A stretch of 31,916 nucleotides of DNA, from the IMG/VR virus record IMGVR_UViG_3300037119_003937, positions 1 to 31,916 of that record. The stretch is one strand, 5' to 3'. The notes under the pieces are model-generated. The model was not told the DNA's origin, ran no database searches, and was given only the letters and a program-made list of their open reading frames with translations. Positions 3-25,726 of this stretch are shown in pieces. Positions within the stretch are counted from its first letter, which is position 1; the number at the start of each line of letters is the position of its first letter. Both the position numbers and the translations under genes were made by a program. The DNA comes from a virus.

Positions 3-677
3 GTCGCTCAAGGGGCGTCTTCCTCTATAGCGATCACCTTCGATAATCCAGTTGTTGCTGGAAGCGTCGTGAAGTTCGGCTTCGCTGGCTTCTTCGGTTC
101 TGCAATCAGCCCACCATTTAATCTTGCAGTTGGACAGTTCGTAAAGTCTGGTTCATCGTCTACCGGGACTCTCACACTGGATGTACATACCACGAGGAAC
201 GTCGCCGGGAACGAGGACAAGGTTGCGTTGCTCTCGATTCCAGTCTCGGGGGATGGAACGCTGACACTTACCTTCAATAACGGTGTAGCAGTTTCTGCTC
301 AGCAGTTCTACATCTTGTGCGGAGCTGAGTGTGAGGATGTAGATACAAGCGCCTCACGAGTCAACGCCACCAGTTCGGCTAATTCCAGCACTAGCATCAA
401 CGGCGCTTCAGGGAACGTCGCCACTGGTGGTGCAGGGATCATCTGGGGCATGCTGGCACCGGGGAGTCCTTATGGGACTATTTCAGCAACCCCAACGGCT
501 GATTACGTTGCTGGTCAGCTTGCTGAGCAAGAGGACGACTCACAGTACAACTTCTGGTTCGGCTATCGCAAGACAGCAGTTGATATCACGGATTCTGTCG
601 ATGTGACTTGGCAGGATACGTCGCCCGATCCCTCGTGGGTGGCCGTGGCTGCGGCGTATAAGTCGAGCACGCCCTGA
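3..677 (+). CDS. virion-associated protein, 5' end cut by the window
   Basis: The reading frame is open from the first bases of the window, so the gene begins upstream; the GTG at 69 is internal to an open frame and is probably not the start. The visible 224 residues are Ser/Thr/Gly/Ala-rich with alternating hydrophobic strands and almost no charge, as in beta-rich virion surface proteins. Two cysteines sit in the segment CGAEC. It is followed, with a 1-base TGATG overlap, by another beta-rich gene, and five more structural-looking genes lie on the same strand, so a tail or capsid decoration role is inferred from context and composition. No catalytic motif was seen and the exact family is not recognised. 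Codon use is GC-richer than in the head genes further right. Confidence 0.6.
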   Translation, partial: VAQGASSSIAITFDNPVVAGSVVKFGFAGFFGSAISPPFNLAVGQFVKSGSSSTGTLTLDVHTTRNVAGNEDKVALLSIPVSGDGTLTLTFNNGVAVSAQQFYILCGAECEDVDTSASRVNATSSANSSTSINGASGNVATGGAGIIWGMLAPGSPYGTISATPTADYVAGQLAEQEDDSQYNFWFGYRKTAVDITDSVDVTWQDTSPDPSWVAVAAAYKSSTP

Positions 678-1726
678 TGCCAGCGATTTCATCCGTCTCC
701 GGCAACGCCGTCCACGGGCAGTCGCTGACAATCTTCGGGTCTGACTTTGGTACGAAGTCGCCTGCGACGCCGCACTGGTGGGACGACTTCGAGGGGCACA
801 CTCTCAGCGCGAATGTGAACGGCCTGACGCCGGTTAACGGGCCGACCAACTGGTCGGCGGGCAGCATCGGCGCTGGACCAAATCACGCCCCGACCATCGC
901 CAACAGCAACCTGCGACATGCGCGAGCCACGAAGTGCGCGCTGCTCGACAATGATCCGACGGAGGGCAACTGGAGCATCGCAGTTTCAGCGTCCATTACC
1001 CCTCTCGGCAGCGGTTCCAAGCTGTACATCTTCTTTCGCAACCGCATGTCGAAGAACGGCTCGTACAGCGACAACTACAAGCCTTACGAGTATTTCGGTG
1101 AGGTCGGTGTCGGGTTCTCCGGCTTCGGCGATCCGGTCGCCGACCCCAATATCCGCACCGACAACACCTATACGGACGCTGGCGGCGGCAGCAATCTTAA
1201 CTACGGCGGGATCGACCAGACCGACATTCTCGACACTTGGGTTGGCTACGAGGAGGAGATAGGTCTTCAGTCGAGCGGTGGATCACGCAGGCTGTGGGTT
1301 CACATCGGCACTAGCGATATTCACGCTGCGTGGAACGACCAGTCGATGACAAAGACCATCGACGGAGGTGAGCACGTCGATTTTATCGTGATGGGCAACT
1401 ATCACCGCGATTCCTACAACTACATCTTCCGCATCGCCGACACCTACATCGACAACACCTTCGCTCGAGTGATGATCGGCGACGCCTCGACGTGGACGGC
1501 TTGCAACGCGAAGGAAATCTTCATCCCAACAGCGTGGAGCGACACACAGATCACCGCTACGGTGAGGCTTGGCGTCATGCCAGATGGCGTGACGCGCTGG
1601 CTGTACGCGGTCAAGTCCGATGGCTCGGTGAATGCCACCGGCTTCGCGGTGACGACTGGAGCGAGCGGTGAGGGCGGCGGGCCAATCCCCAGCGTATCGC
1701 CGCGCACCATCTACCTGATGCCATGA
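677..1726 (+). CDS. putative virion/tail protein with IPT/TIG-like N terminus
   Basis: A 349-residue protein starting at the ATG that overlaps the previous stop (TGATG). Residues 3-25 (ISSVSGNAVHGQSLTIFGSDFG) resemble the opening strands of an IPT/TIG immunoglobulin-like domain. The middle, about residues 30-260, is rich in Trp, Tyr, Gly and Asp with many predicted strands, compatible with a jelly-roll or concanavalin-like fold that might bind a surface glycan. Residues 285-335 look like a second TIG-type strand set (WSDTQITATVR, then a Gly-rich linker). There is no signal peptide or membrane segment. Its place among fibre-like genes suggests a receptor-facing virion protein. The fold is inferred, not proven, and no enzyme motif was identified. 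Confidence 0.6.
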   Translation: MPAISSVSGNAVHGQSLTIFGSDFGTKSPATPHWWDDFEGHTLSANVNGLTPVNGPTNWSAGSIGAGPNHAPTIANSNLRHARATKCALLDNDPTEGNWSIAVSASITPLGSGSKLYIFFRNRMSKNGSYSDNYKPYEYFGEVGVGFSGFGDPVADPNIRTDNTYTDAGGGSNLNYGGIDQTDILDTWVGYEEEIGLQSSGGSRRLWVHIGTSDIHAAWNDQSMTKTIDGGEHVDFIVMGNYHRDSYNYIFRIADTYIDNTFARVMIGDASTWTACNAKEIFIPTAWSDTQITATVRLGVMPDGVTRWLYAVKSDGSVNATGFAVTTGASGEGGGPIPSVSPRTIYLMP

Positions 1727-1905
1727 TCACCACGCAGACAATCGAGATCAACAGGAGCGTGAAGGACGAGCTGGAGGTGCTCGCGACCGCGCTCGATCTG
1801 ATGGCAAAAAAGAACTACACCGAAGCGGCCCGCGTCCTGATCGAGCGCAAGGACGTGCTGATGAAGGACGCGCCGCTCAAAATCTACGACCAGAGGGAAG
1901 CATGA
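1723..1905 (+). CDS. small helical protein of unknown function
   Basis: A 60-residue protein whose ATG overlaps the previous stop by four bases (ATGA) and whose own end overlaps the next start, so it is translationally coupled on both sides. It is charged and predicted almost wholly helical, with the core VKDELEVLATALDLMAKKN followed by a second helix around EAARVLIERKDVL. No known domain is recognised. The tight packing between two virion genes argues that it is real. An assembly chaperone or small adaptor for the neighbouring tail proteins is possible, but this is only positional inference. Confidence 0.6.
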   Translation: MITTQTIEINRSVKDELEVLATALDLMAKKNYTEAARVLIERKDVLMKDAPLKIYDQREA

Positions 1906-2246
1906 CCTTCCGCATCGGCACGCCGCACACGAAGGGAGCGGGCTATTTCATCAACGACAAGGACACCTCGCGCCCGCAGGAAGCCGACATCCAGACATGC
2001 TCGCATTGCCAGCGGGTGATAAAGATGCAAGAGTGGAAAGGCGACGGAGGATTCTGCGGGAAGTGCATGCATCCCATCTGCGGGCCGTGCGCGACGCGGG
2101 CGATGACCTATGGCTGTGAGCCATTCATGAAGAAGATCGAGCAGTATGCGGAGAAGAGCATGCGATACCACCAATTCTCGAAAATTGCGGGGCTTGAGCC
2201 GGTGCCCCACAACTCAACCCCCACCGGCCAAACTTCAAAGGAGTAA
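1902..2246 (+). CDS. cysteine-rich zinc-ribbon-like protein
   Basis: A 114-residue soluble protein with seven cysteines in a compact region: C33 and C36 (CSHC), C52 and C55 (CGKC), C60 and C63 (CGPC is part of this run) and C72. The first two pairs are spaced like a zinc ribbon; the second group, C60, C63 and C72, could complete another metal site. The tail after residue 75 is helical and basic, ending in a Thr/Pro-rich stretch. The start overlaps the previous gene by four bases with GAGGGA upstream. Zinc ribbons usually bind nucleic acid or protein partners. Here the gene sits inside a run of virion genes, which is unusual for a regulator, so a structural or transcriptional role is open. Metal binding is inferred from spacing only. 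Confidence 0.65.
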   Translation: MTFRIGTPHTKGAGYFINDKDTSRPQEADIQTCSHCQRVIKMQEWKGDGGFCGKCMHPICGPCATRAMTYGCEPFMKKIEQYAEKSMRYHQFSKIAGLEPVPHNSTPTGQTSKE

Positions 2247-2249
2247 ACT

Positions 2250-2723
2250 ATGTCTCAGTTCACCAGCGGTACCCCTGCAACCTTCACTCCAACCGCTTCG
2301 ACGACGGACGCGAACGCCGCAGTCCTGAGCGTCCTGACTGTCGGCCAGTCGGCCTGCGTCAAGATGATCAACTGGGGCGGCAGCGGCACCTCGCTCGTCG
2401 GCTACGTCACTCGATGGGCGCGCATTACGAACACCGCAGCGACCCCGACGGCGCGGCTCATTTCGAACGCGGGTTCCACCACGGTCACGCCGCAGGCGAC
2501 CTGTAACACCTACGCCACTCCGGCGACTGCCACCGCCGACACCTACCTCTTCAAGCAGAACTGGAACGTGCAGGGCGGCGGCGGCGCGATCGTGCTGCCG
2601 ATCGGCGGAGAGTGGTGGATCGTCGGCGGAGCCCTCGGCACGCTCTTCAACCAAATTGGGCCGGGCAACATCACCGGAGCAGACGCGAACCTGTCGAACT
2701 ACTCGACGACTTGGGCTGAGTAA
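2250..2723 (+). CDS. putative virion structural protein (beta-rich)
   Basis: A 157-residue protein with a clear AAAGGAG ribosome binding site before its ATG. It is Thr/Ala/Gly-rich and low in charge, with the pattern of short alternating strands typical of small decoration or tail-attachment proteins. A Gly run with IVLPIGGEWWIVGG near residues 105-128 suggests a tight hydrophobic strand pair at the core. There is no signal peptide, coiled coil or catalytic motif. Position between the cysteine-rich gene and a tail-fibre-type gene suggests that it is part of the particle, but no named family is recognised. Confidence 0.6.
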   Translation: MSQFTSGTPATFTPTASTTDANAAVLSVLTVGQSACVKMINWGGSGTSLVGYVTRWARITNTAATPTARLISNAGSTTVTPQATCNTYATPATATADTYLFKQNWNVQGGGGAIVLPIGGEWWIVGGALGTLFNQIGPGNITGADANLSNYSTTWAE

Positions 2724-2737
2724 TGCTGTAACAGTTT

Positions 2738-2763
2738 CCGCCGGGGAGATTTGTCTCCGGCGG
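2738..2763 (+). promoter_or_regulatory. GC-rich stem-loop between two virion genes
   Basis: The left arm CCGCCGGGGAGA pairs with the right arm TCTCCGGCGG around a TTTG loop, leaving a two-G bulge. No T-tract follows, so it is not a standard intrinsic terminator. It lies just before the GGTGGAG ribosome binding site of the gene starting at 2777 and could tune translation or mRNA decay between the two cistrons. Confidence 0.4.
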
Positions 2764-2776
2764 TGGAGAATATTGA

Positions 2777-3556
2777 ATGGCCGACACTAAAATCTCGGCT
2801 GCAACGGCGGTCGCGACGCCCGCTGGGACAGACGAATTCGCCACCCACCAAGGCGGCGCGTCGAAGCGAACGACGCTCGCTCAGATCAAGACGTTCGCCA
2901 ATACCGCGCCGGTGTTCGCGGCAGGCACGGCTTCGGCAGGAACGCATCCGGTCTTCACTGGCGGCACGGTGCTAACGACGCCAGAAGACGGGGCTGTTGA
3001 GTTCGACGGCACCAACTTTTTCGGCACAGTTGACGCAGGCAATCGCGGCTATATTCCTGTTCGGCACTTCATCCGGTGTTCGGCAGCGCAAACCCTGACT
3101 GACACGACTGCCGCTCAGAACATATTTGATTCTCCGGCCAACGGGACCATCACACTTGAAACCGGGGTGTATCTGTTCGAGGCGTTGATCGCCCTTACCG
3201 GTATGTCAGCCACTTCGGGAAATGCACAAATCCTGTTTGGCGGAACGGGCACTTTCGGAGATTGGCTATGGAGCGTTGCCGGTATTGACGCTGCGGACAA
3301 TCAAACCCTTGTTGATATGGACAATCCGTTCATTATTACCAATGCGTCTGCTGCATCGGTGGTTAGCGCCGGAACGGGTGCGGCGCTACGACTTATTCTA
3401 CGAGGGAGTTTCGAGTGCTCTAGCGCAGGCACGCTCATTCCTCAAATAGACTTGGTGACGGGCGGGGTGACGCCAACCGTGGCTGCCGGTTCATACTTTT
3501 TGCTTGAGCGCATGTGTGCGAGCGGAAGCGTAAATTCGCTAGGTCAATGGAGTTAA
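2777..3556 (+). CDS. putative tail fibre / virion protein with conserved phage N terminus
   Basis: A 259-residue protein. Its first 40 residues (ADTKISAATAVATPAGTDEF, then a Gly-Gly-Ser-Lys/Arg-Thr segment) match the N-terminal attachment signature common in phage tail and fibre proteins, usually seen as KISxLPxATxxxGTDxFPVxQGG. The remainder is strand-rich; residues 95-259 look like a C1q/TNF-like trimeric head (TLTDTTAAQNIF, GVYLFEALIAL and SAGTGAALRLILRG are consistent strands). A trimeric receptor-binding or decoration protein is therefore likely. A GGAG ribosome binding site precedes the ATG, just after a stem-loop. The C1q-like assignment is inferred from pattern only. Confidence 0.65.
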   Translation: MADTKISAATAVATPAGTDEFATHQGGASKRTTLAQIKTFANTAPVFAAGTASAGTHPVFTGGTVLTTPEDGAVEFDGTNFFGTVDAGNRGYIPVRHFIRCSAAQTLTDTTAAQNIFDSPANGTITLETGVYLFEALIALTGMSATSGNAQILFGGTGTFGDWLWSVAGIDAADNQTLVDMDNPFIITNASAASVVSAGTGAALRLILRGSFECSSAGTLIPQIDLVTGGVTPTVAAGSYFLLERMCASGSVNSLGQWS

Positions 3557-6724: not shown

Positions 6725-7723
6725 ATGGCATTCCCAAACGTCACGGATATCGTGGCAACGACCATCGAATCGCGTTCTAGAAAGATTGAGGACAACGTCC
6801 TCAACAACAACGCGGGTCTGGCGTACATCAAGAGCAAAGGGAACGTCAAGCCTGTCTCCGGAGGTCGTATCATTTACGAGGAACTGTCGTTCGCGGAAAA
6901 TGCGAACGCCGGATGGTACTCGGGATACGATCTACTTCCGGTGGCAGCGCAGGATGTTCTTTCCGCAGCTGAGTTTTCGCTGAAACAGGCGGCGGTCCCA
7001 GTCATCATCAGCGGTCTGGAAGAGCTGCAGAATGCAGGTCGTGAGCAGATGATCGACCTGATGGATAGCCGTATCACGGTCGCAGAATCGACCATGACGA
7101 ACATGATTGCGAACGGCTTCTACAGTGATGGCACTGGTTCCGGCGGCAAGGAAATCGTCGGTCTGGATGCAGCAGTACCCCTCGGCGCGGCAACTGGTCG
7201 CGTTGCGACTGGCAACTACGGGAACATCGAACGTTCCCTGTGGGGTTTCTGGCAACCGTACACCCTTCGTGGAACGCCCACAACTGCTGCGAATATTCAG
7301 GCGCAGTGGAACTCCATTTGGGCGCAACTCGTGCGTGGGCGCGATCGGCCAGATCTTATCATCACCGATTCCGCTATGTGGGCGCTCTACATGGCATCGC
7401 TTCAGGTCCAGCAGCGTTTCGTCAATCCCGAAAAGGCGAAACTCGGCTTCCCAACCGTGCAGTACATGGACGCGGATGTCGTGCTCGACGGCGGTCTGTA
7501 CTTCCCGTCTTCGGCGTGGGGTCCTGGAATGACCACTAACACGGCGATGTTCCTCAACACCAAATTCCTGAAGTGGAGGCCTCATTCGCGGCGAAACATG
7601 GTGCCGCTGAGCCCGAATCGCAGGTACGCGGTGAATCAGGATGCCGAAGTGACGATTCTGGCGTTTGCGGGCGCGTTGACCTGTTCAGGTCAAGCGTTCC
7701 ACGGTCGCCATCTCGGAACTTAA
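6725..7723 (+). CDS. major capsid protein (HK97-fold type)
   Basis: A 332-residue protein, the usual size for an HK97-fold coat. It follows the scaffold-like gene, has an almost perfect ribosome binding site (AGGAGG, seven bases spacing) and codon use richer in preferred GC-ending codons than its flanks, consistent with very high expression. Sequence cues are an N-terminal helix followed by a strand with GGRIIYEELSF (E-loop-like region), the long central helix QMIDLMDSRITVAESTMTN (spine-helix-like), an A-domain stretch with RPDLIITDSAMWALYMASLQ, and a late MFLNTKFLKWRPHSRRNM strand typical of phage coat proteins annotated in P22-like podoviruses. It should form the icosahedral shell with the adjacent 168-residue protein. 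The family assignment is confident in general but not to subgroup. Confidence 0.85.
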   Translation: MAFPNVTDIVATTIESRSRKIEDNVLNNNAGLAYIKSKGNVKPVSGGRIIYEELSFAENANAGWYSGYDLLPVAAQDVLSAAEFSLKQAAVPVIISGLEELQNAGREQMIDLMDSRITVAESTMTNMIANGFYSDGTGSGGKEIVGLDAAVPLGAATGRVATGNYGNIERSLWGFWQPYTLRGTPTTAANIQAQWNSIWAQLVRGRDRPDLIITDSAMWALYMASLQVQQRFVNPEKAKLGFPTVQYMDADVVLDGGLYFPSSAWGPGMTTNTAMFLNTKFLKWRPHSRRNMVPLSPNRRYAVNQDAEVTILAFAGALTCSGQAFHGRHLGT

Positions 7724-19630: not shown

Positions 19631-20104
19631 TCAAGATTTCTTGGCCTCAGTGGAAGCGCGTGCCAGCGTTTGATAGTAGAAGTGATGCAGGAACCCAAGC
19701 GGCGCTTTCCACATCCCGCCCATCTCACGCAGCCACAGCGCTCTACCTGACCGCCCATTGCCATCGGTAAACGGGTGCAGGATCTCGTACTCAACGTGCA
19801 TCTCGTAGGCGTCTCGCACCTTGTCCTTGTTTTCCAGCATGGAAGCTAGAGCAGCCTGCACCTGCGGCCCACCACGAGGCGCTATGTGATCCCCTACGCG
19901 AACGTCTAACCCCTGAATGAACCTGGGCTTAGCGTTTGGCTGGTAGACCGCTACGAGGTTGATCAGGTCGGAGACGGTGATGGGCCTTCCGGTGCGCGAC
20001 AGAAACCTCGCCGTGGCCGCGACTTCCTCGCCTGTCGGCTCGCGGTGGATGCCTTCGATGCGGTTCGACTCGCGCACGAAGTCATCAAGCGAGAAGATTT
20101 TCAC
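19631..20104 (-). CDS. Fic-family protein with N-terminal inhibitory motif
   Basis: A 157-residue protein starting at GTG, overlapping the upstream stop by four bases (GTGA), with AGGGGAG upstream. Residues 110-121 (HPFTDGNGRSGR) are a complete Fic active site: His110 as the base, Asp/Gly/Asn and two arginines for the nucleotide phosphates. Residues 65-80 (LDVRVGDHIAPRGGPQV) match the Fic flap that positions a target strand. Residues 13-18 (SNRIEG) match the (S/T)xxxE(G/N) inhibitory helix, so this is a class II-like enzyme with its switch on the same chain. Known Fic proteins AMPylate or phosphorylate Tyr, Thr or Ser of target proteins. The target here is unknown. It is the last gene of the leftward operon, in a GC-rich patch. 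Confidence 0.88.
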   Translation of the reverse strand: MKIFSLDDFVRESNRIEGIHREPTGEEVAATARFLSRTGRPITVSDLINLVAVYQPNAKPRFIQGLDVRVGDHIAPRGGPQVQAALASMLENKDKVRDAYEMHVEYEILHPFTDGNGRSGRALWLREMGGMWKAPLGFLHHFYYQTLARASTEAKKS

Positions 20105-21159
20105 GCATCTCCCCTATCTGAACGTGCAGGTATTGCGCACTCCGACGCCTTTACTTGGGCGAGCAGTGCCATGAACAACTCGAAGGCTTCACCGTACCGC
20201 GCGTCGATGGTGTGCCCGCCCATCCTGGTAACGATGGCGTCGCGCACCTGCTCGAAGGTGTGCTTTGCGGACGCGGGTAGTCTGTCAGCAAGGCGGCGCA
20301 GGAAAGTCGCGTCGTCGAAGTTCTCCAACTGCTCGGTATAAGCAGCGATCTCCTGCAGCTTGCTGATCGCGTCCCGCCAGTCAGCGCGGTCCCATTCCTC
20401 GCCGCGCTTATCGCGCGTGTCGGAATCCCTCGGACGCGGGCAGTTCGGATCGTGGCTGTCGGTGTAGCCGCATGCCTCGCAGTAGTCGCGCGTGGTGGCC
20501 CGTGTCTCCGATGAAGCCATACCCATCAGCAAGCTCACGATGTCATCCAAGACCCGCTTGCTGACGCTCACCTTCACGATCTCGTGCGCCCCGCTTTGTT
20601 CCTCGATGGCCTCGTTGATGTAGTTGATGACCTCTTGCGGGTGCGGCAACGGGTTCCACGTGGTGCTGGTAGTGATCGTCGGTGGCTGCGGCGCAAGCGG
20701 GAGCACCTGAACGATCTGTGCGTGTATCTCCGATGGGGCGAAGGACTCCATTAGACGACGCAGTTCTGTGCGCATCATCGGCCATTCGGTCCAGTGCCCT
20801 GACACGCAGCCCTGCAACATGGCTTGCAGGTTCGGGTAGTCCTTCAATCTCCCCGGCTTATCGTCAATGCACGGTGCAGCAACCGCAGGGGCCAAGTCCT
20901 CGGCGGAATGGATACCACCACTCGGGGGCACCTGCGGCGCTGCATTCGTCTCCGATGCGGCTGTACGCGCTTCCAGCTCTGGCATTTCAGTGCGCCAGCG
21001 GTAGGTGTCCTCGCCGCACATCATGGCGTTGGCGAACCAGGCAATGAGATCTCCTTCATCCAGACCGGCTCTTGAGTACAGAGGGAACCGCTCCATGAAC
21101 TCTCGCGCCCAGCGGGCAGCGTCGCGGTCGCAGTTTAGTGGGACCACTGGGGTATTCAT
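20101..21159 (-). CDS. GC-rich phage protein of unknown function with a Cys motif
   Basis: A 352-residue protein, ATG start with AGGGAG about ten bases upstream. Residues 12-56 (AAARWAREFMERFP is the general style; exact start DRDAARWAREFMERF, then DEGDLIAWFANAMMCGEDTY) resemble the N terminus of phage accessory proteins. The middle has a Cys pair and a Cys/His group (YCEACGYTDSHDPNCP, about residues 228-243) that may bind zinc. The C terminus is helical. The gene overlaps Fic by four bases and its GC content is well above that of the ligase upstream, so the two may have been acquired together. It is not recognised as an antitoxin or enzyme. Confidence 0.6.
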   Translation of the reverse strand: MNTPVVPLNCDRDAARWAREFMERFPLYSRAGLDEGDLIAWFANAMMCGEDTYRWRTEMPELEARTAASETNAAPQVPPSGGIHSAEDLAPAVAAPCIDDKPGRLKDYPNLQAMLQGCVSGHWTEWPMMRTELRRLMESFAPSEIHAQIVQVLPLAPQPPTITTSTTWNPLPHPQEVINYINEAIEEQSGAHEIVKVSVSKRVLDDIVSLLMGMASSETRATTRDYCEACGYTDSHDPNCPRPRDSDTRDKRGEEWDRADWRDAISKLQEIAAYTEQLENFDDATFLRRLADRLPASAKHTFEQVRDAIVTRMGGHTIDARYGEAFELFMALLAQVKASECAIPARSDRGDA

Positions 21160-22530: not shown

Positions 22531-23073
22531 TTAGTGGGCCGGGGGTGTGGTACCTACCGCTTTTTCTCTACCCGGACCCAATATAGCGTCCAGCTTCTCC
22601 CAGACTCCCTTTGGCATTCCCTCTTTAATGTTGAATAGGTAGTTGGATCCATTTTGGAACACCACCTGCATGAAACGATTTCCCATGAGAGATTCTGCCG
22701 AAGCACGGCAGCAGAGTTCTGCCATGTCTGCTACTTTGAGAAGAATTTTCTCCTCTGGTGTTAAAGTTTCATAAGCCTTGAATTTCATGTTGTAGAGTTC
22801 ATCTACCTTCTCCTCAATTTCTTCAAGAATCTCGCCCATGTTCCCCAGCCACTTTGCAGTGGCGGGAATATCCCCCGTTATATGTTCGTATCCGTCGTGT
22901 TCCAGGATAGCGCGTACTAGATTATCTGAAACGAAACCATCTGCTAGGTAAAAGGCGACTACTAGCACACGAGCCGTATGGTCCCCGACTGTTTGTTCCC
23001 GAATACAGGGAACAGTATGAAATCTTTTTACATCGTAGGCACGGAACAGGTGCCCTAGTTGTTCAGAGTTCAT
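22531..23073 (-). CDS. HD-domain nucleotidase, YfbR/DatZ-like
   Basis: A 180-residue HD phosphohydrolase. The sequence VKRFHTVP (15-22) and QTVGDHTARV (27-36) provide the first metal His32; HD motif H59-D60 with E63 (EHDGYE), D68 in TGDIP and D116 (LKVADMAEL) complete the site. This is the layout of YfbR 5'-deoxynucleotidases and of phage DatZ-type dNTP phosphohydrolases, which remove an unwanted nucleotide from the pool. Its start overlaps the TS-like gene by 11 bases. In this neighbourhood a plausible role is lowering dTMP or dTTP so that the modified dUMP derivative is used, but the substrate is not readable from sequence. Confidence 0.85.
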   Translation of the reverse strand: MNSEQLGHLFRAYDVKRFHTVPCIREQTVGDHTARVLVVAFYLADGFVSDNLVRAILEHDGYEHITGDIPATAKWLGNMGEILEEIEEKVDELYNMKFKAYETLTPEEKILLKVADMAELCCRASAESLMGNRFMQVVFQNGSNYLFNIKEGMPKGVWEKLDAILGPGREKAVGTTPPAH

Positions 23074-23983
23074 CCTTCATCCTTTCATCGTAACGTTCGC
23101 AAGCGAGACGCCAGTCTGTAGCCTTGCATAGTCTTGAATTTCTTTGAAGTAACGGCACAGCCACCTCTTCAAAGAATGGCTCTTGAAATCCTCTTCTCTT
23201 ATTGTGGAAAACTAAATCCTCACATTCGCGAAGCCATGAGCCTAGATCACCTTGAAGTATGGGGTAAGCTCCAACTCCAAGCTCTTCATAAGTTTGATGC
23301 TCTGGTGGTCTTTCAAGGAAAAGCCAGTGTCTCTTGTAGATATGAAGATTATTCGTTACTTGATACATCGGTCCTACACTCATTCGTAAAGATGAGGCCA
23401 TTAGTTCATGGAGAAAAGAGAAATGTACGATGTTAGAACCAACAGCGCCCCACACCAGATCATTAGATCTGTTGAGCACTGTCATCGTTAGAGAATTATC
23501 TTGGTACGCACGAAAATAAATGTGAGTATTGCAGGGAAGATCCTTCTTTTCCACTCCGAGATCTAGATTTGGATCCCACATGGATATGACTGCTCGCCGT
23601 GTAGTGGGATCTCTGCGAAGCATAGCCCGAACATCCAGTAGTTGATCTGAATTAAAGTGCTCTCGCCAGCGGAAGCCATAAGCTCCGTGAATCTCCCCCG
23701 TTTCTTCCGCATAATCCATCATTCGCGGGTTAAAATCTTCCAACCAAGCGGCGATATCACAACCTGCCATCATCCACAGACATTCGGCGAAGTGGAAATA
23801 GGGATTTTCCTTACGTTCCGGCACGAACAGCACCCGATTTCTTGGCCGTAATGTCGTCAGAGTAACGGGGTGTGGAATGGTCTTTACGAGACCATTACGT
23901 GAATTCTCTTCTATACCCGTAGCCCTCATTTTCCACAAACATTCTGTAAAGAGAGAACTAGCCTCCAGAGCCCGAATTTCCAT
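23063..23983 (-). CDS. thymidylate-synthase-fold protein, likely dUMP hydroxymethyltransferase
   Basis: A 306-residue protein with GGAGATAG before its ATG. Conserved thymidylate synthase residues: R129-R130 (TTRRAVIS), catalytic Cys151 in LPCNTHIYF, R172-S173-N174-D175, N184 (GSNIVHF) and H214/Y216 (NLHIY). N184 corresponds to the Asn that selects uracil rather than cytosine. Cys-Asn-Thr after Pro and Arg-Ser-Asn-Asp resemble T4 dCMP hydroxymethylase (as I recall CTNT and RSND) more than canonical ThyA (Cys-His and Arg-Ser-Cys/Ala-Asp). With N184 this suggests dUMP to 5-hydroxymethyl-dUMP. Plain thymidylate synthase is the alternative. It is downstream of the glycosyltransferase and helical-domain genes, which supports the hydroxymethyl role. 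Confidence 0.85.
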   Translation of the reverse strand: MEIRALEASSLFTECLWKMRATGIEENSRNGLVKTIPHPVTLTTLRPRNRVLFVPERKENPYFHFAECLWMMAGCDIAAWLEDFNPRMMDYAEETGEIHGAYGFRWREHFNSDQLLDVRAMLRRDPTTRRAVISMWDPNLDLGVEKKDLPCNTHIYFRAYQDNSLTMTVLNRSNDLVWGAVGSNIVHFSFLHELMASSLRMSVGPMYQVTNNLHIYKRHWLFLERPPEHQTYEELGVGAYPILQGDLGSWLRECEDLVFHNKRRGFQEPFFEEVAVPLLQRNSRLCKATDWRLACERYDERMKDEL

Positions 23984-24170
23984 CTTCTATCTCCGTAACT
24001 TCCAAATTGAAATGTTTAGCGAATTTCTCCGCTGCCTCTTCGCTAGCGAATACGAGAACCTGCCAATCGTTATCAACGGTTACAAGAGCGGTCAAGCGCC
24101 CGTCAGGATATTTGAATCTTTTTACAAGTCTTCCATCAGTACCGCTGCTTTGGTGTTCCTTCTCCGACAT
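23958..24170 (-). CDS. 70-residue protein nested between base-modification genes
   Basis: I start it at the ATG at 24170, preceded by GGAAGG; a longer start at 24290 lies in the previous gene. The 70 residues contain a likely beta-beta-alpha core: DGRLVKRFKYPDGRLTALVTV, then DNDWQVLVF and the helix SEEAAEKFAKHF. Its 5' end overlaps the helical-domain gene by 35 bases and its 3' end overlaps the TS-like gene by 26. This coupling suggests the product works with the modification enzymes. No family is recognised; a small accessory or DNA-binding factor is a guess. Confidence 0.65.
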   Translation of the reverse strand: MSEKEHQSSGTDGRLVKRFKYPDGRLTALVTVDNDWQVLVFASEEAAEKFAKHFNLEVTEIEDGNSGSGG

Positions 24171-24978
24171 ATGCCTTCCAGTATTTTGAAAATTCACAGA
24201 GGCAGTTTTGAAAATCCTGCATACAGATCTGGAGCCCTCCTTCATCTTTGAAGTGTTCCTCTTCAACTTTGTGGTACAGGGTGGTAGCATGCAGTAGGAA
24301 ATGCCTTTCCGACAAGTCCTGACGTGCTAGGACATTACGGAGACCACGCAGGCTACCGGGGCCGGGGGCTGCCCAACTCCACCAGTCTGGGGCTTTTTGA
24401 AGTGGGTGATAGGGCGTATTTTTGATATCTGCAATGACTTGAGCAGAAAGAAAGGAACCCAGTCCTTTGAACTGTGTGAGATAGTTGAAGTACACCTCAA
24501 GAGTTTCTTCTCCAGGAAGGTACTGCCTGGAGTGTTGGTACACAGAGTCAGCCACGCCAACGATATAATCTACTTTGTCCATTCGCACACCACAGGTCGT
24601 AATGAGATACGCCGCGTTGAGGATTTTTGCCCCCGAGTCTCTTCGAGCTTTGATGTGCGCTATTAGCGCATCTTTATTCCATTGTTCTGGGAACCCAATT
24701 TCTTGAAGAGTATCCGGATTATTCAGCATTCTAGCAAGAACCATAGCCGGAAGTAGATTCTCATGATACACATAGGGATTTCTCCAGTGATTCGCAATCC
24801 ACTTAGTAACCCGGTCATCTTCACGTCGCACGTTCGTAAAGCGATAGTTATTCAGGATAGGGTCTTCTGTCCATGGGCGTGCTAGCCCCGCTTCTTTCTC
24901 GGCGAGGATGTTTCTGCGCTCTTTAATCCAGAACGCCAAAAGTGCGCTGCGATCAGGCTCTAGATTTTCCGTATTCAT
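24136..24978 (-). CDS. 5-hmdU DNA kinase helical-domain protein (no P-loop)
   Basis: A 280-residue protein matching the helical domain of 5-hydroxymethyl-dU DNA kinases (earlier called alpha-glutamyl/putrescinyl-thymine pyrophosphorylase, type 2). Signatures are FWIKERRNILAEKEAG (16-31), PWTEDPI (35-41), YRFTNVRREDDRVTKWI (45-61), a helix-hairpin-helix FKGLGSFLSAQVIADI (170-185), GPGSLRGL (206-213) and the late LCEFSKYWKA (260-269). No Walker A sequence is present anywhere, so the kinase half seen in phages such as M6 and ViI is missing. The HhH with Asp184 recalls DNA glycosylases; binding or flipping a modified base is the likely role. It overlaps the glycosyltransferase by 26 bases. Confidence 0.85.
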   Translation of the reverse strand: MNTENLEPDRSALLAFWIKERRNILAEKEAGLARPWTEDPILNNYRFTNVRREDDRVTKWIANHWRNPYVYHENLLPAMVLARMLNNPDTLQEIGFPEQWNKDALIAHIKARRDSGAKILNAAYLITTCGVRMDKVDYIVGVADSVYQHSRQYLPGEETLEVYFNYLTQFKGLGSFLSAQVIADIKNTPYHPLQKAPDWWSWAAPGPGSLRGLRNVLARQDLSERHFLLHATTLYHKVEEEHFKDEGGLQICMQDFQNCLCEFSKYWKAYVGEGTPKQRY

Positions 24979-25726
24979 ACGCCGCCTTCCATTGTATAAT
25001 TACATCTTCTCGTTCTCGTCCTTGCCACGCCGTCGCAGTTTTCTTCTTTACCACGTTTACGAAGTCAGGAAAGATTTCTTGTAGTCTTCGTGCCGCTGCG
25101 CTTTGCTTTTCCATCGTACGATAAGTAGAACATCCACCAGCGGAATTACTTCCTCCTTGATTTTGCACCATCCAGTTGATACTCATATGGGGATATCCCC
25201 TAGTGAGTAAGCTTAACTGAACGTAGAAATCTTCCATCAACTCCATATGTCGGAAGTCGATTTTGAGGTCTAGAAGAACATCAGTTCGATACGCCAAAGC
25301 TCGTAAAGCACGAGTGTTCATGACGTAACGGTCTGTTCGACGATTTCCTCCTTCTCTGGGAGAAATTGCTACATGGATATAATCGTCGAGAAGATTACTA
25401 ACTTCACTGAAGACTAACCCAAGTTCGTCATCTGTTGGAGTACGAAACTTGCTGGTTTCGTCCGTACGTCTGATAGCGAATGTAAGGTCATCGTCTAACA
25501 TTAAGACCTTCGCATCGCCTTTGCCATAGGCGAAATCACAAATAGCTTGCCGGGTGGCTCCGATACCTGAGACTTCCATGGCTAATACTGGAAGCTTGTA
25601 TACTTGATACGACTTTACTTCTTCTTTTGGAACTACTAGAATTACTTGCTCCCGAATTTCTGGGGGAAGTCCCATTAAGGTGACTTGCTTCGTGGCCCTA
25701 GCTCTACTAGGGATAGCGATGAGCAT
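24953..25726 (-). CDS. TET-associated-type glycosyltransferase (GT-A-like)
   Basis: A 257-residue protein with GAGGAA before its ATG. It opens IAIPSRARATKQ, a nucleotide-sugar-binding start, and has the metal motif LMLDDDLTF (Asp78-80). An acidic motif MELMEDFYVQLSLL (near residues 158-171), a Gly-rich segment NQGGSNSAGGCSTY and the C-terminal REREDVIIQWK fit the phage glycosyltransferase family that Iyer, Aravind and colleagues called TET/JBP-associated (TAGT), predicted to glycosylate hydroxymethyl pyrimidines in DNA. The sugar is not predictable. It leads a run of overlapping genes with the 5-hmdU-kinase helical domain and the TS-like enzyme, so hmdU in DNA is the likely acceptor. Confidence 0.85.
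   Translation of the reverse strand: MLIAIPSRARATKQVTLMGLPPEIREQVILVVPKEEVKSYQVYKLPVLAMEVSGIGATRQAICDFAYGKGDAKVLMLDDDLTFAIRRTDETSKFRTPTDDELGLVFSEVSNLLDDYIHVAISPREGGNRRTDRYVMNTRALRALAYRTDVLLDLKIDFRHMELMEDFYVQLSLLTRGYPHMSINWMVQNQGGSNSAGGCSTYRTMEKQSAAARRLQEIFPDFVNVVKKKTATAWQGREREDVIIQWKAAYEYGKSRA

Follow-up and report, generated by a model that had tools for sequence, protein, structure and literature searches.

A 157-residue open reading frame in the window (the whole stretch of viral DNA analyzed here, 31,916 nucleotides) encodes a very small, intact Fic enzyme whose activity is predicted from its sequence. Fic enzymes normally attach AMP to proteins, or remove it. We propose that this gene specifies a class II Fic AMP-transferase that is minimal and self-inhibited, belongs to a virus-restricted clade and is made early in infection, as cargo that would tune a host or defence protein; we give this reading, taken as a whole, an even chance. 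Fic enzymes, class II inhibition and the occurrence of Fic proteins in viruses were already known, and what appears to be new is a compact class II clade apparently restricted to viruses.

Active site and inhibitory motif of the viral Fic protein

The Fic gene, its motifs and the neighboring gene are located in the window as follows.

19631 to 20104, minus strand: Fic enzyme open reading frame, 157 aa, GTG start (Pfam PF02661, 34.2 bits; viral homologues)
19742 to 19777, minus strand: catalytic motif HPFTDGNGRSGR, H110 to R121 (H110, P111, D114, G117, R118 and R121 invariant)
19865 to 19924, minus strand: predicted flap, or target dock, R61 to P80, RFIQGLDVRVGDHIAPRGGP (R61 and G71 invariant; V68 and P76 above 90%)
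20051 to 20068, minus strand: inhibitory motif S13-N-R-I-E17-G, in which E17 is the predicted inhibitory glutamate (82-member alignment; profile alignment with CdFic)
20057 to 20089, minus strand: N-terminal helix, residues 6-16, located where class II Fics have their inhibitory helix (DSSP of the AlphaFold2 model; structural alignments)
19664 to 19696, minus strand: C-terminal signature of the viral clade, GFLHHFYYQTL, residues 137-147 (F138, Y143 and L147 invariant in 82 members)
20105 to 20115, minus strand: ribosome-binding-site-like AGGGGAG, read from the sequence (AGGGGAGATGC, then GTG)
20101 to 21159, minus strand: upstream overlapping open reading frame, 352 aa, of no known family, sharing a GC-rich block with the Fic gene

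The PF02661 score exceeds the Pfam cut-off of 24 bits, and the same profile matched 67/67 aligned clade members. The AGGGGAG sequence lies a few nucleotides upstream of the GTG start, which overlaps the stop of the 352-aa reading frame by 4 nucleotides (GTGA). Residues 110-121, HPFTDGNGRSGR, match HxFx(D/E)GNGRxxR, which, like (S/T)xxxE(G/N), is a published motif, the former of the active site and the latter of inhibition (PMC3667792). Conservation was counted over 82 viral homologues, or 76 after near-copies were removed. The six residues listed above for the catalytic motif did not vary among the 82, and N116 was found in 81 of them. The active site of the window protein is intact, as the sequence-only reading had stated.

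The same reading had recognized SNRIEG (residues 13-18, N-terminal to the Fic core) as an inhibitory motif, and the alignment agrees with this: the segment fits (S/T)xxxE(G/N), S13 and I16 are each present in 82/82 members, and E17 is Glu in 81/82 and Asp in the remaining one (L090). When near-copies were removed (76 rows), E17 was within the 20 most conserved positions, whereas the mean column identity across the family alignment was 39% and most other positions varied, so that SNRIEG and the catalytic site are conserved to about the same degree. Judged by this alignment, the match to the motif is not due to chance and is conserved family-wide. In all three Fic classes, the inhibitory Glu displaces the gamma-phosphate of ATP from the second Arg of the active-site motif and thereby blocks AMP transfer, and an E to G change relieves the inhibition (PMC3667792). 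The viral protein consists of the inhibitory helix and the Fic core alone, with the second domain absent. The motif Ser and the catalytic His are 97 residues apart, compared with mostly 113-140 in bacterial relatives, and the GFLHHFYYQTL signature was missing from the bacterial Fic reading frames that were checked.

An AlphaFold2 model built with 67 family members had a pLDDT of 95.6 and a pTM of 0.90, and in this model the helix assigned by DSSP to residues 6-16 leads through SNRIEG. The top structural matches were all class II Fics, namely CdFic (4x2d, Z 12.1), SoFic (3eqx, Z 11.7) and FICD (4u0s, Z 11.4). Their alignments span 142-143 residues and begin at model residue 1, whereas the class I and III proteins NmFic, VbhT and EcFicT align from model residue 18 only, suggesting that the motif helix occupies the inhibitory-helix position. 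In class I and III Fics, the inhibitory helix comes from elsewhere. The concern that SNRIEG might point away from the active site was not borne out, as judged indirectly by structural alignment of the model. In a profile alignment, S13 and E17 of the family fell on S31 and E35 of CdFic, the pair mutated in 4x2c/4x2d, with the motif stretch alone contributing only 1.7 bits; when the family profile was aligned with profiles of bacterial class II Fics, the match covered residues 41-154, leaving the motif outside. Taken together, the sequence comparisons and the predicted structure support well the assignment of this protein to class II, with an N-terminal inhibitory segment. Of the earlier description of a self-inhibited, possibly regulated enzyme, the inhibitory segment is thus upheld by conservation, model and fold comparison, and that the enzyme is regulated may fairly be supposed.

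The closest counterparts of the viral protein differ from it in size and setting. CdFic (Clostridium difficile Fic 0569; PDB 4x2c/4x2d/4x2e), the best match over 142 residues, carries an N-terminal SNKIEG in register with the viral SNRIEG; however, it is a bacterial protein with a chain of 235 residues instead of 157, and is 20% identical. SoFic, a class II protein reported to act as a single-gene anti-phage defence, shares the catalytic motif, an N-terminal inhibitory Glu (E73) and the fold, but it is a bacterial defence protein of about 360-370 aa with an extra C-terminal domain and 18% identity, and the SoFic NCBIfam model gave the viral protein 22.7 bits against a cut-off of 550, which places it outside SoFic. 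FICD (HYPE) has the same class II arrangement, but it is an enzyme of the ER with a TPR domain and BiP as its target. A structure search of viral models returned weak matches only, to the Fic proteins WSSV Wsv406 and those of Oryctes nudivirus and Fusobacterium phage Fnu1.

Distribution of the viral clade

Related stretches were sought in viral contigs; a first scan yielded 8 and a later one at least 151, and 80 were kept. We built a maximum-likelihood tree from 76 viral and 73 other Fic sequences, the latter from bacterial genomes except for one short human-gut contig named 'Bacteriophage sp.' (L002). The viral family stood on a single branch with a support of 100/100 and a length of 2.31. 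L002 grouped among the bacterial rows, indicating that phage records can hold other Fics too. A profile of the clade, applied at an E-value of 1e-14, matched 0/754 alpha- and gammaproteobacterial genomes (385 centred on Cypionkella and 369 on Methylobacter), and it matched 8/8 held-out virus records with 160-212 bits. Among the matches listed, the bacterial genome scan gave only distant Fics, and plasmids gave distant Fics only and no clade member. Rare prophage copies of the clade may occur in bacteria.

The single homologue found in an isolated phage was UFK26723.1 of Roseobacter phage RDJL6 (OK283306.1), which is annotated as 'hypothetical protein', falls in the same clade and is 44.8% identical to the window protein. 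The clade occurs in phages of 27-68% GC. From these sequence comparisons, the homologues form a deep and large clade, apparently restricted to viruses in the genomes sampled, and phages have carried the clade for a long time. In the literature on phage Fic enzymes, we found no characterized relative and no description of this compact class II clade.

CtrA-like reading frames were seen in several Fic-bearing phages (L001, L022, L058 and L085), and the family is annotated as a CtrA transcriptional regulator in RDJL6, suggesting alphaproteobacterial hosts for those phages.

Gene context and probable recent acquisition in the window phage

The Fic gene closes a series of closely spaced minus-strand genes for ligase, nucleotide metabolism, helicase and polymerase, and this end position in a replication and nucleotide gene run suggests that it would be expressed early. 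The clade Fic was found in 0/22 records of relatives with a shared major capsid protein (identity of up to 92%), and two further records, found through the 352-aa neighbor gene, also lacked it. In a collinear 43-kb relative (L258/L259), a 117-aa reading frame replaces both the Fic gene and its 352-aa neighbor, between lysis-side genes and DNA ligase. The GC contents of the Fic gene and its neighbor are 0.591 and 0.615 (GC3 0.715 and 0.745), compared with 0.45-0.50 in the window genes from ligase to polymerase. The Fic gene exceeds its surroundings in GC by 0.106 in the window, whereas the same difference at 75 other loci had a mean of 0.000, a standard deviation of 0.030 and a maximum of 0.078. 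This GC excess, together with the Fic-lacking relatives, suggests that the two-gene block was acquired recently in this phage and is probably accessory cargo here.

The 352-aa reading frame has almost no relatives, with a 31-aa match in L256 and a 47-aa match in Streptomyces phages. We rejected it as an obligate partner of Fic, because only two related viral loci were found and one of them is a 100% identical fragment. This fragment, a record of 13,558 bp (L255, IMGVR_UViG_3300037070_001612), carries seven genes, from the TAGT gene to the 352-aa reading frame, with 100% protein identity to the window; it seems to be the same virus recovered again, with the 352-aa reading frame cut by the contig end. 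The start of the window, at 300-3450, is GC-rich as well (about 0.59 or more) and was perhaps exchanged too. The major capsid protein (6725-7723, plus strand) is nearest to that of Stenotrophomonas phage BUCT555 (61.6%), followed by Myxococcus phages Mx9/Mx8 (53-55%), and the polymerase is nearest to those of Xanthomonadaceae phages and an environmental phage (37-38%).

Proposed function and alternative explanations

We envisage that the Fic core would bind ATP/Mg at HPFTDGNGR and that E17 would pair with R121, keeping ATP in a non-productive pose. At rest, the enzyme would be off or would remove AMP, and a rearrangement of the helix or of the active site, brought about for example by a target protein, a metal or a change in oligomer state, would release it. 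It would then add AMP to, or take AMP off, a hydroxyl group on a host protein aligned on the flap. Made alongside early genes as accessory cargo, it would adjust a host or defence protein in the course of infection. In this scheme, we infer that the enzyme inhibits itself in solution, that AMP is the group moved, that expression is early and that the target is a host protein.

One point against this scheme is that a strictly conserved off switch would be odd in a phage weapon, which could become active in one step by losing the Glu. For deAMPylation, FICD and EfFic require the very Glu that blocks AMP transfer, and this Glu has been proposed as a signature of bifunctionality (PMC6408439). By analogy, this favors a regulated enzyme that would add AMP, remove it or do both, and the E17 enzyme may be an AMP remover as much as a silenced adder, an alternative that was missing from the sequence-only reading. 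In its strongest form, which we consider a serious but minority possibility, the protein is mainly a deAMPylase, in which E17 aids the hydrolytic removal of AMP from host proteins such as gyrase and topoisomerase IV, the AMP having been placed there by host Fic toxins or by a SoFic abortive-infection system. The Fic-1/AntF complex deAMPylates GyrB through the Glu of the antitoxin (PMC13327609), SoFic, one of the relatives of the viral clade, is a class II protein that by itself provides anti-phage defence (PMC12249575), and the retention of E17 in the viral family is as expected of a deAMPylase. However, bacterial class II Fics also retain the Glu; thus, the conservation of E17 is not specific to a deAMPylase role.

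SoFic also provides the precedent for a phage-borne defence or superinfection-exclusion gene (PMC12249575), where infection by a competitor would release the Fic, an essential host protein would be AMPylated and the infection would be aborted, in the manner of a miniature SoFic. The gene is accessory and apparently recently acquired in this phage, and an integrase above the curated cut-off is also encoded in 14/50 Fic-bearing records. But the protein lacks the C-terminal domain reported to be necessary for SoFic toxicity (PMC12249575), and the integrase is absent from most records, though many of these may be fragments. No integrase was found in the window, a 31.9-kb linear record that may itself be a fragment, the collinear relative's record being 43 kb. 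The sequence-only reading had called the genome lytic-looking, which these records do not establish; homologues stand in records with an integrase and in records lacking one. We regard this explanation as unlikely.

The Fic fold would suit the toxin of a toxin-antitoxin pair of the Doc/Phd or FicT/FicA type, and bacterial Fics often act as such modules (PMC5651007). This role is highly improbable for the viral protein, which has a built-in inhibitory motif and a canonical GNGR instead of a Doc-type site. Doc-type active sites lack GNGR, and Doc of phage P1, a member of the same Fic/Doc superfamily, has a kinase-type active site and the separate antitoxin Phd, whereas the viral protein combines GNGR with a built-in inhibitory helix. 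With the degenerate HPFxxxNKR-type site absent and the canonical GNGRxxR present, we rejected Doc, and because the site has GNGR and the gene has no conserved antitoxin neighbor, the comparison drawn earlier with Doc was given up. No neighbor family within 1.2 kb was common to more than 5 of the 76 Fic loci, the top one being integrase-like, which argues against an antitoxin partner; a class I FicTA pair was rejected because no conserved small antitoxin gene lies beside fic in these loci. The VbhA family was found in 0/50 Fic-bearing records, in a search run without a positive control. Within 8 kb of the 76 loci, the most frequent neighbors were a DNA methyltransferase-like family, seen at 16, and tyrosine-integrase-like genes, seen at 13, as named from sequence. 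Beside Fic, small HNH-like genes (L021, L027 and L051) and DUF1643-like genes (L023, L027 and L044) were noticed by eye at three loci each.

The window also holds a likely DNA hypermodification cassette (22531-25726, minus strand) with an HD/YfbR-like hydrolase, a thymidylate-synthase-like protein, a TAGT glycosyltransferase and a 280-aa protein that matches only the HMUDK helical domain, its kinase part being unmatched; most of the cassette is kept in the relatives L259, L263 and L265. A role for Fic in this pathway, by nucleotidyl transfer to hydroxymethyl bases, has a negligible chance despite the cassette, because HMUDK_hel occurs in only 1/50 Fic-bearing records, which refutes a general link, and Fic is missing from close relatives that carry the cassette.

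We therefore retain the self-inhibited class II Fic AMP-transferase as the preferred reading. The invariant active site and the near-invariant inhibitory Glu across the clade suggest that this chemistry has been long selected in phages. Phages modify host proteins by ADP-ribosylation and phosphorylation, and the clade is a good candidate for another tool with which a phage may manipulate the infected bacterium. A small class II Fic may also be a handy model for class II activation or for switching between AMPylation and deAMPylation. More tentatively, and with the balance of our expectation somewhat against it, these phage-only miniature class II Fics might add AMP to host or defence proteins, or strip it off, as the first dedicated viral family of this kind, possibly acting as an 'anti-Fic' counter-defence against SoFic-type immunity.
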